Source of the DNA: Gemmatimonadota bacterium
GTDB lineage: Bacteria > Gemmatimonadota > Gemmatimonadetes > Longimicrobiales > Gaopeijiaceae
Assembly: GCA_030827315.1 (NCBI GenBank)
Contig: JAURER010000019.1
Location: 1 to 58,602, forward strand
Length of the DNA: 58,602 bases
Direction: 5' to 3'
The position numbers and the translations under genes were made by a program. Within the stretch, counting starts at the first letter, position 1. Every line of letters starts with the position of its first letter. Of the stretch, positions 34,391 through 38,283 are shown one piece after another. The notes under the pieces were generated by a model, which saw only the letters and a list, made by a program, of their open reading frames with translations, was not told where the DNA came from and made no database searches.

Positions 34391-34824
34391 GGCTCGATCA
34401 CCTCGATGAACACGTCGTCGAACTCCTCCATGAGTGCCTCGAAGCTCGTGGGGGAGGTCTCGATGACGATCTCGCGCGGCTCTCCGGAATCGTCTCCCGA
34501 GCGCCTCACGACGCCCAGCATGACCGGCGGAAAGACGTCGGCGGGGGCCTCACCTACGCTCGCGAACGTGGGCTCCACGGTCACGCCCCTGCCCGTATGC
34601 TCGGCGGTATAGGAAACGGTCACCACCTCGCGCCGCTCCTGTCCTTCCTGGAAGAGGCTGACGGCCACGAGGCCCTGCTCGCGCCGTCCCCGGCGCACCG
34701 GCGGGAAGATCCAGAGGCGGTCGATGTTCTCAACACCGAGGTAGTCCCGCAGCCGGATGAGCGTCCTCGGCAGCGCCTCGGGCACGCCCGGATCCGCGCT
34801 CCTCGGCTGATCGGCACCGGTCAT
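34387..34824 (-). CDS. Conserved hypothetical protein between nrnA and fur
   Basis: A 145-residue soluble protein with no recognised domain. It contains TLIRLRDYLGVENIDRLWIF, beta-rich stretches (GLVAVSLFQE, VVTVSYTAE, EIVIETS) and an acidic C-terminus ending EEFDDVFIEVIEP. ATG 34824 overlaps the nrnA stop (ATGA) and its own stop overlaps the fur GTG, so all three are one coupled unit. That context suggests a role tied to nrnA or fur expression, but nothing in the sequence says which. Confidence 0.75.
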   Translation of the reverse strand: MTGADQPRSADPGVPEALPRTLIRLRDYLGVENIDRLWIFPPVRRGRREQGLVAVSLFQEGQERREVVTVSYTAEHTGRGVTVEPTFASVGEAPADVFPPVMLGVVRRSGDDSGEPREIVIETSPTSFEALMEEFDDVFIEVIEP

Positions 34825-35858
34825 TTCGATTCTCCACTTGCGCCCATCGTCCGAGCGACGGCGCGGCGGGTGGCGGCCAGTACATCTCCCACGGCGCGAT
34901 CCAGCGGTCCCGGAACGACCGCACCGGAGGCCTTCGTGTGTCCGCCTCCGTTCAGAGCGCGCGCCAGCGCGTTCACGTCCACGGGTCCGTTGGACCGAAA
35001 AGAGATCTTCACCTCGCCCGACGCCGTGGTCCGGAAGAGGAGGCCGACCTGCGTCCCTCCGATCGAACGAGGGATGTCCACGAGCCCCTCGAGGTCCTCG
35101 GCCGTGGCCTCGAGCTCGTTGTACGCGTCGAGCGGGATGATCATCCACGAGACGCCCGTGTGCGGCTCGTGCTCGAGCGTGTCCAGCGCGTGCCGCAGAA
35201 GGCGGTACTTCCGCAGGGGCGCCGCTCCGTACACGAGGTCGTGCAGCTTTTCCGGCTCGGCCCCGCGCGCGATCACCTCGGCCGTGATCCGGTGGCACCC
35301 CGGGGTCGAGTTGTCGAAGCGAAAGCCGCCGGTATCGGTCATGATCGCCACGTACACGCCGCGCGCGACGGCCTCAGTCCATGGTCCGTTCGCCGCGGCG
35401 ACGACGTCGAAGACGAGTTCACCGGCGGCGCAGGCCGTGCTGTCTCGCAACGAGACCCCGCCGATGGCCTGGACCCCCGTGGGATGATGGTCGATGACCA
35501 AGATCGGAAGGTCCCGGATCATGTCCCACACGCGCCCGACACGAGGAACCTCCCCCGTATCGAGCACGATCGCCAGATCCGCCGACTCGCAGACGCTGCG
35601 CGCCTTGCGCGACCCCACCGGAAGGATCCAGTCCTCGTTTTCGATGAGGAAGCGGAAGTGCGGAGGAAAGGTGGTCGGGTTCACGATCCAGGCCTCGGTC
35701 CCGTTTGCCCTTAGCCACGACACCAGCGCGGCCTGCGAGCCGGCGCCGTCACCGTCGGCGTTGAGGTGGGTCGTCAGGACAGCGCGACGCGACGCGAGGA
35801 GCGCGTTTCGGGCCTGGGTAACCGCCGCCGCCCTGTGCGCAGGCGTCCGGTAGCTCAA
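34821..35858 (-). CDS. nrnA: Bifunctional oligoribonuclease / PAP phosphatase (DHH family)
   Basis: Degrades nanoRNAs to mononucleotides and may dephosphorylate pAp. The 345-residue protein has motif I HLNADGDGAGS (His31, Asp35, Asp37), VLDTG (Asp100), the DHH motif VIDHHPTG (Asp123-His125) and the DHHA1 motif LNGGGHTKASG (304-307), all expected for NrnA. The TTG start at 35858 has AGGAT just upstream and gives the right N-terminus. 82 bp behind the CoaE-PHP fusion. Confidence 0.93.
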   Translation of the reverse strand: MSYRTPAHRAAAVTQARNALLASRRAVLTTHLNADGDGAGSQAALVSWLRANGTEAWIVNPTTFPPHFRFLIENEDWILPVGSRKARSVCESADLAIVLDTGEVPRVGRVWDMIRDLPILVIDHHPTGVQAIGGVSLRDSTACAAGELVFDVVAAANGPWTEAVARGVYVAIMTDTGGFRFDNSTPGCHRITAEVIARGAEPEKLHDLVYGAAPLRKYRLLRHALDTLEHEPHTGVSWMIIPLDAYNELEATAEDLEGLVDIPRSIGGTQVGLLFRTTASGEVKISFRSNGPVDVNALARALNGGGHTKASGAVVPGPLDRAVGDVLAATRRAVARTMGASGESK

Positions 35859-35940
35859 GTAAGATCCTGACCCTGGAGTGGATGGGTAGCCCGACGGGCT
35901 CGGGCGTGGCGAAAAAGTACGCTGACCGGGGGGGGCACCG

Positions 35941-37203
35941 CTACCGCGCCCCGGGGAGCCTCTTGCGGAGCTTCGCCCAGGTCGAGGCAAGGTGGACCAT
36001 GCGCGACGCCTCCCTGCCGCCGGCCGAGGCCGAGGCCAGGGCACCGCGGAGCGAATCCGGGCGGTTCGGATGCCACGCCACTTCGACGAAGGCGTTGCCC
36101 AGCTCGCGCAGCGTATGTGCGTCGGACCCAGCGCCGCGAAGCCTGCCGTGACGGACCGCCAGTTCCTCCGCTCGAACGTTCATAGCCGGCACGTGCAGCC
36201 TGGCGTTGAAGACTTCCACGACGTCACAAAGGGGTGCAAGCCGTTCGGCGTGCGCGCCGCCGCCGCCCTTTCCACCCGCGTACGGATGGGGCAGGTAGGA
36301 GATGCCGCCCTGATCCCCGATCCGCGCGATCGCTTCCTCGGCCGGTGTGCCCTTCGGGATCTCGTGGGTCAGATACAGCCCGATCAGGTCGACCCCCTCG
36401 GCCGTCCTCACCTCCTCACCGGGAATCACCGTCTCCGGGTGGGCCTCGGCCATGCGCAGGGCGACGTCGAGCCGGTTGTGGTCGGTGATCGCGAATCTCC
36501 CATACCCCAGGGCCACGAGCCTCTCCAGCACCCGTTCCGGATCGGAGAGGCAGTCCCATGAGCCCTCGGTGTGCAGGTGCAGGTCCATGCGCAGGGGGCG
36601 GATGCCCGCCCGGAGCCGAAGAGCCTCGAGCACCCGGTCGGCCTCCTGATCCAGTGCATCGAGATCGCCGCCGTTCTCGAGAACGAAATCGGCCCTCCTG
36701 CGCTTTTCGGCCGGGTCCATCTGCGACGCCACGATGCGCCGCGCCTCGTCCCGGTCGAGTCCGCGGTGCTCGACGATCCGGTCCAGACGCACCGATTCGG
36801 GCGCGTCGACGAAGACCACCGCGTCGAAGTCGCCCTCCCGGCCCGTCTCGAAGAGGAGCGGGATCTCGGATACCACGAGCGGAGCCCCCTCGTCGCGGCG
36901 GTCGTCCAGCCACCGCGCGCGGAGGCGCCACACGACGGGGTGGACGATACCCTCGAGGCGCGCGCGGGCGGCCTCGTCCGCGAAGACAACGTCCCGCATT
37001 CGTGCCCGGTCGAGGGAGCCGTCGGCCGCCAGGACTCCGTCGCCGAACGCGGCGACGACGGCGCCGAGCCCCTCGCTGCCGGGCGCCACCGCCTGGCGCG
37101 CGAGATCGTCGGCGTTCACGACGGGGACCCCCGCGGCGGCCCAGCGTCGCGCGACCGCGGACTTGCCCGCCGCGACGTTGCCCGTCAGGGCGACGCTCAG
37201 CAC
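35941..37203 (-). CDS. coaE: Dephospho-CoA kinase fused to a PHP-domain phosphoesterase
   Basis: A 420-residue single reading frame. Residues 1-205 are CoaE, the last step of coenzyme A synthesis: P-loop GNVAAGKS (8-15), PLLFE, VFVDAPE and the QMDPAEKRRRADFVLENGG lid/adenine region. Residues 206-420 are a PHP domain: HLHTEGSWD (His209, His211), AITDHN (Asp241, His242), Glu263/264, LPHPY (His306) and GSDAHT (Asp361, His363), a full metal-binding set. No stop separates them. The GTG start has GGGAGGAGG before it and overlaps the DedA stop by 7 nt. Met206 has no clear ribosome site of its own. Confidence 0.88.
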   Translation of the reverse strand: MLSVALTGNVAAGKSAVARRWAAAGVPVVNADDLARQAVAPGSEGLGAVVAAFGDGVLAADGSLDRARMRDVVFADEAARARLEGIVHPVVWRLRARWLDDRRDEGAPLVVSEIPLLFETGREGDFDAVVFVDAPESVRLDRIVEHRGLDRDEARRIVASQMDPAEKRRRADFVLENGGDLDALDQEADRVLEALRLRAGIRPLRMDLHLHTEGSWDCLSDPERVLERLVALGYGRFAITDHNRLDVALRMAEAHPETVIPGEEVRTAEGVDLIGLYLTHEIPKGTPAEEAIARIGDQGGISYLPHPYAGGKGGGGAHAERLAPLCDVVEVFNARLHVPAMNVRAEELAVRHGRLRGAGSDAHTLRELGNAFVEVAWHPNRPDSLRGALASASAGGREASRMVHLASTWAKLRKRLPGAR

Positions 37204-37901
37204 GCCCCCTCCTCCCGGCCGGTGGAATCCGGCGTCGACGTTCCGTGTGGGTCCGACTCCGGAGCGGTTCCTGGCAGCCTCCCCGCACGGGCCGCGGCTC
37301 GCTGCCGTCGGGTCAGCGTGAGGGCGACCACGGAAGCCACGACGAAGAGGGTGGCTCCCCCGACGCCGACCACGTCGGCGGCGGTCTTCCACCCCTGGCG
37401 TCCCGCAAGCCCGATGGTGACGTAGAGAAGAAGCCAGCCGACCAGCCCCGCCACCTCGTAGGGAAGGAAACGCCCATATGACATCCCGCTCATCCCGGCC
37501 GCCGAAGGCATCAGCGTTCGCACGAACGAGACGAGGCGCGCACCCGACACGGAGTAGATCGGATGCCGGCGGAATAGGTCGTCGATCTCCCGTCGCCTCG
37601 CGCCGAGCAGGCGCGACCACCGACTCCCGTCCCGAAAGAGCCACCTGCCCCAGCGCCGACCGACCCAGAATCCGATGGAGTCGCCGAGGAAGCCGCCGGT
37701 CCCCGCGGCGATCACCATGGGAATGAAGTCTGCACGCCCTTCCAGGGCGAGGATGGTGGCGAGGGAGGTGGCCACGCCGGACGGGACGACGAGTCCCGTG
37801 ACGAAGCACGTCTCGAGCACCGCCAGGGCGAACAGCAGCTTGGGTCCGTGCGCGGCCAGCTGCAGGAAGAGGTCCTCGAACGGGCCCACGGCCTCTGCCA
37901 C
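37197..37901 (-). CDS. DedA-family membrane protein
   Basis: A 234-residue membrane protein of the DedA/VTT family, some members of which flip lipid carriers such as undecaprenyl phosphate. Hallmarks are LETCFVTGLVVPSGV near the N-terminus, GGFLGDSIGFWVGR and the re-entrant segment GARLVSFVRTLMPSAAGMSGMSYGRFLPYE. The C-terminal 35 residues are hydrophilic. The GTG at 37901 follows the preceding stop by 10 bp. Confidence 0.88.
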   Translation of the reverse strand: MAEAVGPFEDLFLQLAAHGPKLLFALAVLETCFVTGLVVPSGVATSLATILALEGRADFIPMVIAAGTGGFLGDSIGFWVGRRWGRWLFRDGSRWSRLLGARRREIDDLFRRHPIYSVSGARLVSFVRTLMPSAAGMSGMSYGRFLPYEVAGLVGWLLLYVTIGLAGRQGWKTAADVVGVGGATLFVVASVVALTLTRRQRAAARAGRLPGTAPESDPHGTSTPDSTGREEGAC

Positions 37902-37911
37902 GCTCCCGACG

Positions 37912-38283
37912 TCAGCGCCGCGGCGCCGCGACGCGCACGTCGTCCGGCGTGGCACGGACGCGATCGGGACCGAACGACACCGTCACCACCGAGTCCGCGA
38001 GGACCTCGAGCTGGTAGACGGACCCCCACGGGTCCGAACGCAACTCCGGTGCCGAGTAGCGGTACTCGAGCCAGGGAAGCCACTCGGCGCCGGCGGGCAC
38101 GCGGCCCGTGAGCCTCTCGTGCTCGACCACGTTGCGCGCCAGCCCGGCCATCTCCTCCTGCGCGCTCCATCGCTGCAGGGGGACGAGTACGGGCTCCGCG
38201 AAGTCGACCAGCATCAGCCTCGAATCCGGGAAGTAGTACCACACCAGCACGCCCAGGACGACCAGGAGCGCGAGGCGCTTCAC
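37912..38283 (-). CDS. Membrane-anchored protein with GspG-like pseudopilin tail
   Basis: A 123-residue protein with one N-terminal membrane helix ([15 protein letters not shown]) and a periplasmic part. The end DPWGSVYQL...[10 protein letters not shown]...TPDDV resembles the C-terminus of type II secretion pseudopilin GspG (DPWG-Y, then SxGxDG), though no prepilin peptidase site is present. It may be a stand-alone relative of that fold; function unknown. The GTG start overlaps the stop of the small upstream gene (GTGA). Confidence 0.68.

Follow-up and report, generated by a model that had tools for sequence, protein, structure and literature searches.

The stretch of DNA analysed (the window, 58,602 nucleotides from a Gemmatimonadota bacterium) features on its minus strand a gene encoding a dephospho-CoA kinase (CoaE) that continues in the same frame into a PHP phosphoesterase domain (Table 1). 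The sequence-only reading had placed the gene at 35941-37203, which is correct, and had recognized in it a whole CoaE and a PHP domain equipped with metal ligands; profiles, ligand residues and the AlphaFold2 model agree with this description. The gene starts with a GTG (37203-37201) and terminates at 35943-35941. The product has a computed mass of 45.4 kDa and a pI of 5.9. Neither a stop codon nor a second ribosome site was found in the window gene between the CoaE and PHP parts. Two other claims also hold: the join is short, the last CoaE helix ending at residue 198 and the first PHP strand beginning at 204 in the model, and the PHP part has no ribosome site of its own. The internal ATG is possibly a relic of an earlier PHP start. 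The whole chain has been modelled by AlphaFold2 with a mean pLDDT of 94.5 and a pTM of 0.83. The source genome is a draft of 3.07 Mb in 99 contigs, and is 98% complete.

Table 1. Genes and sequence features at the coaE-PHP locus of the window.
Feature	Coordinates	Strand	Remarks
NrnA-like DHH-DHHA1 phosphoesterase gene, downstream	34821..35860 (start approximate)	minus	Pfam DHH and DHHA1
Fused coaE-PHP gene	35941..37203	minus	420 aa; one uninterrupted frame, shared by 12 same-genus genomes
PHP phosphoesterase domain, residues 204-420	35944..36594	minus	Pfam PHP and PHP_C, fold matches; no insertion domain
Internal ATG (Met206)	36586..36588	minus	Near the old PHP start position; no Shine-Dalgarno sequence
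Short join, residues 202-203	36595..36600	minus	AlphaFold2 model
Dephospho-CoA kinase domain, residues 1-201	36601..37203	minus	Pfam CoaE, TIGR00152, fold match to 4i1v
DedA/VTT membrane protein gene, upstream	37197..37955	minus	Pfam VTT_dom, 60.7 bits vs. 33.9
Shine-Dalgarno sequence AGGAGG	37208..37213	minus	4 nt ahead of the GTG; good ribosome site

CoaE enzymes phosphorylate the 3'-OH of dephospho-CoA. The N-terminal half of the window protein matches Pfam CoaE (residues 3-181, 168 bits vs. a cut-off of 27) and TIGR00152 (130.7 bits vs. 65.55), and aligns with structure 4i1v over 198 residues (VIA-align Z 26.3, rmsd 1.4). The P-loop reads T7-G8-N-V-A-A-G13-K14-S15; G8, G13, K14 and S15, as well as D32, are conserved in the related loci. 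No second CoaE match was found in the source genome. The half is thus a complete CoaE by sequence and fold, and as it is the sole CoaE found, the predicted phosphorylation of dephospho-CoA is likely.

The PHP half spans 217 residues and has no insertion between its two PHP portions. Pfam PHP matches residues 207-249 with 24.5 bits, just below the cut-off of 26.4, and PHP_C matches residues 342-389 with 34 bits (cut-off 21.3); both cut-offs are exceeded in three relatives carrying a further domain, described below. The metal motifs HxH (H209/H211), DH (D241/H242), E (E264), H (H306) and DxH (D361/H363) are all present. These and the other ligand-type residues, D217, D272 and E330, show no variation in 104 related loci, fused and split alike, apart from being absent in gapped or truncated rows. 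Because the ligands are kept across essentially all these loci, the domain very probably has enzymatic activity, predicted to be that of a metal-dependent hydrolase. Most of the half is modelled with a pLDDT of 95-98. The closest solved folds are PsfC (VIA-align Z 19.5), TM0559 (19.4) and BVU_3505 (18.7), followed by the PHP domain of RNase AM (17.7) and CV1693 (16.6); BAD_1165 and EndoQ also belong to this set, whose members, ranging overall from Z 19.5 to 16.6, are not clearly separable. The three best matches share 16-21% identity with the PHP half and, unlike it, have no CoaE partner. The structures of TM0559 and BVU_3505 are titled merely predicted phosphoesterases.

RNase AM (Rnm, YciV) and CV1693, a 3',5'-nucleotide bisphosphate phosphatase solved with AMP and phosphate bound (2yb1), resemble the PHP half in fold and in most metal ligands. 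They differ from it in an insertion domain that holds the 5' phosphate (PMC9410882). By-eye comparison with the same paper also places the third-metal Asp of the window protein one residue later than in RNase AM (S-x-D vs. S-D-G), and the invariant D272 at the position of the second-metal His83. Membership in the Rnm/RNase AM/CV1693 family was rejected on these grounds and because scores fall far under the cut-offs (NF041577, 23.9 bits vs. 400; NF047791, 23.5 vs. 375), only the first 63-79 residues of the half being matched. Assignment to the CehA/McbA metallohydrolases (NF038032) was similarly discarded, with 36.6 bits vs. a curated cut-off of 80.

Fifty-nine relatives were searched with the whole protein. 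Of the 13 other genomes in the genus, 12 encode the two halves in a single frame, at 61-71% identity; one of the 12 matches stops at a contig edge inside PHP, and the thirteenth genome, 63% complete, gave no match. By span of match, as counted from the table of hits, the fused form occurs in at least 74 of the 394 genomes of the class. About 100 loci were fetched and translated as stop-to-stop frames, and 104 non-redundant loci were analysed. CoaE and PHP share one frame in 63 of these, and are encoded in the remaining 41 by two adjoining genes lying in different frames. Split pairs were seen only in genera other than that of the window. In 8 of 40 such pairs the coaE stop and the PHP start share 4 nt; in the others the two lie close together. 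The two genes are adjacent in every analysed locus having both on the stretch, in five families. The join measures 11-12 residues between conserved edges in most of the clade of the window. ATG, GTG and TTG codons are all missing within three codons of the PHP core in 22 of the 63 fused genes, and PHP has there no start at the old site. Among the sequences flagged for internal stops, ten were examined (L003, L006, L018, L022, L025, L068, L070, L072, G127 and G291); each holds both halves in one stop-to-stop frame, and in L018, L022 and L025 the stops that raised the flag are located at the end. A pattern scan of 84,980 genomes, which detects close relatives only, retrieved seven fused loci, all from Gemmatimonadota. 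No paper describing a CoaE-PHP fusion turned up among those searched. It is practically certain that the fusion is genuine and conserved.

In the window DedA is encoded by a separate gene upstream of coaE, in a different frame, and the two genes share 7 nt at the coaE start. A single reading frame, 629-662 residues long, covers DedA, CoaE and PHP in three genera: g4 (four genomes), g58 (one) and g14 (two). The seven loci are L021:1495-3480, L063:4037-5956, L068:3345-5231, L070:4024-5910, L145, L146 and L147. No start codon is found directly at CoaE in these genes, and VTT_dom and CoaE, along with the two PHP profiles, score over cut-off in three of the proteins. An AlphaFold2 model of the triple fusion, built with just seven sequences, has a mean pLDDT of 49, too low to be informative. 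In L106 (family f2) DedA and CoaE are fused and PHP is separate. The triple fusions suggest that the completion of CoA can be tied to the membrane. No paper linking DedA with dephospho-CoA kinase was found in the literature search.

On the other side, the very next gene is nrnA, which encodes an oligoribonuclease, in 73 of 96 loci. Sequence motifs reveal another DHH phosphoesterase gene directly upstream of coaE in families f4 and f9, and an Rnm-like PHP gene further upstream in f4. L073, L077 and L115 have a DHH gene in that position and, further up, genes for thioredoxin reductase and a metallo-beta-lactamase-like protein; an Rnm-like PHP fragment is also found upstream in L073 and L077. Genera such as g41 have kept coaE and nrnA and lack PHP. 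In L119, L120 and L121, from same-family genera with no recognizable PHP, nrnA comes directly after coaE, which would fit either a loss of the PHP gene or its original absence. The source genome also encodes, separately, an Rnm/CV1693-like PHP protein about 276-299 residues long (L142, G000:C74:5922-6182), which scores 149.5 bits to NF041577, below the cut-off of 400, and two genes of the inositol-monophosphatase family.

The history of the fusion was followed on a maximum-likelihood tree built on both domains, the join being left out. At least nine changes of state are needed on the unrooted tree, four of them forced by well-supported branches. The largest fused clade comprises 38 loci, the window included. 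Rooting with clostridial CoaE gave, under equal-cost parsimony, ten gains and no losses; a two-fold penalty on gains turns this into two gains and nine losses, so the direction is likely, not proven. Since other genera keep adjacent, often 4-nt-overlapping genes, the fusion came from the in-frame merging of an old gene pair, and this likely occurred about ten times in the class. The sequence-only reading had set a real fusion against two genes joined by loss of a stop. Both are true in a sense: two genes fused long ago through loss of the stop between them. It had also looked to close relatives for two genes and a stop; such pairs exist, but in other genera, and all same-genus genomes with the locus carry the fused form.

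Merging of this kind may be near-neutral. Single indels would fuse genes that share an operon and overlap at their ends, in stop-poor, GC-rich DNA, and selection would tolerate the product; the substrate of PHP would be unrelated to CoA, and fusion would just fix a 1:1 ratio. The overlaps and short gaps of the split relatives are in line with this view, as is the count of just two stops in 420 codons when the window gene is read in one alternative frame. DedA, too, has become joined to CoaE, in 7 of the 36 closely spaced pairs. In the rest of the cluster, though, neighbouring genes were never found in one frame: PHP-NrnA (0/73), NrnA and the next gene (0/62), the next gene and Fur (0/31), gspG-DedA (0/30), Fur-agmatinase (0/22), gspG-coaE (0/16) and agmatinase-Cls (0/16), in contrast to the 63/104 of CoaE-PHP, DedA-coaE being the exception. 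As loci are not independent, what should be weighed is about ten events against none. The constant adjacency of coaE and PHP also speaks against mere tolerance. Near-neutral merging is a serious possibility, ranked second among the explanations.

The best explanation, held tentatively and with its substrate class included, is a bifunctional enzyme. The N-terminal half would phosphorylate dephospho-CoA to CoA. The C-terminal half would be a catalytically active PHP phosphoesterase that depends on metal and is tied covalently to CoaE because an old overlapping gene pair merged in frame; its substrate would be a small adenine nucleotide with a 3' phosphate, connected with the use of CoA. Nucleotide phosphoesterases are encoded in the surroundings (NrnA downstream, the extra DHH gene in f4 and f9), and this context is the sole lead to the substrate; it agrees with the earlier suggestion of a CoA-pathway or nucleotide by-product as the target of PHP. 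The transfer of phosphopantetheine from CoA to carrier proteins releases pAp (3',5'-ADP). For this reason pAp, or the 3'-phospho-ADP group of CoA itself, are the first candidates. The fold matches to RNase AM and CV1693 count in favour of this reading; the missing insertion domain argues against it, as do the folds of PsfC and TM0559, which are at least as close. NrnA degrades RNA of 2-4 nt from the 5' end and cleaves pAp only weakly (PMC9757072). The source genome has, besides NrnA, the Rnm/CV1693-like PHP and the two inositol-monophosphatase-family genes, so other enzymes may already take care of removing pAp. The literature search returned no paper on a PHP-type pAp phosphatase linked to CoA. 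Given the separate Rnm-like PHP, the inositol-monophosphatase-family genes and the PHP-free genera, the proposed substrate class is put forward as somewhat doubtful, and pAp in particular as unlikely, even if first in line. That an essential CoA enzyme has repeatedly been fused to an intact hydrolase points to a step so far unrecognized, either where CoA biosynthesis ends or in the fate of the 3'-phosphoadenosine group of CoA. The 45 kDa protein offers a direct route to the substrate of an orphan PHP subfamily.

PHP might alternatively strip the 3' phosphate from CoA and reverse the CoaE reaction, the protein setting the ratio of CoA to dephospho-CoA. CoA shares its 3'-phospho-ADP group with pAp, which is handled by the related PHP enzyme CV1693 (2yb1), and it would be reasonable for such an enzyme to be linked covalently to the kinase that it opposes. 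Such a switch would waste ATP unless regulated, and no regulatory domain is present, which leaves it improbable. By analogy with RNase AM, which frees intact FAD from FAD-capped RNA (PMC9410882), the PHP half could remove dephospho-CoA caps from RNA 5' ends and pass dephospho-CoA to the CoaE half, with NrnA finishing the short RNA and DedA anchoring the machine to the membrane in some genera; this scheme is highly speculative and very improbable.

CoaE is known for carrying partner domains, and CoaE-PHP is a further instance of this habit. In animals CoaE is fused to another enzyme in the bifunctional CoA synthase (PPAT-CoaE, 2f6r). There the partner is the preceding pathway enzyme, placed N-terminally, and not a PHP hydrolase. 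Closer in layout is the mycobacterial CoaE-UPF0157 (GrpB) protein (Rv1631, 6n39, PRK03333), in which CoaE is followed in one chain by a C-terminal domain of about 210 residues. The CoaE half of 6n39 is the best PDB sequence match of the window protein. The second domains are unrelated, however, PRK03333 matching residues 1-193 only (185.8 vs. 215 bits). The UPF0157 domain aids the folding of M. tuberculosis CoaE (PMC2765170), and a non-catalytic PHP occupying the same C-terminal position might by analogy assist folding or stability. The second domain of the window protein looks catalytic from its residues, and ligand invariance is the pattern expected of selection on catalysis, which argues against a mere folding domain; CoaE moreover stands alone in genera lacking PHP. 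A folding partner is thus very improbable. That a stop was lost in this record only, conceivable in a draft of 99 contigs, is a negligible prospect, as the same fusion in the 12 same-genus genomes rules out sequencing or assembly error.

Short PHP relatives with no CoaE part were noticed on a Thermoplasmata contig (L042:5001-5507, 38% identity) and a Verrucomicrobia contig (L043:4377-5030, 32%); no coaE was found beside them within the contig stretch examined. An ATG within three codons ahead of the PHP core is commoner in fused (26/63) than in split genes (7/40), and may be a remnant of the former start or allow some internal initiation at a low level.
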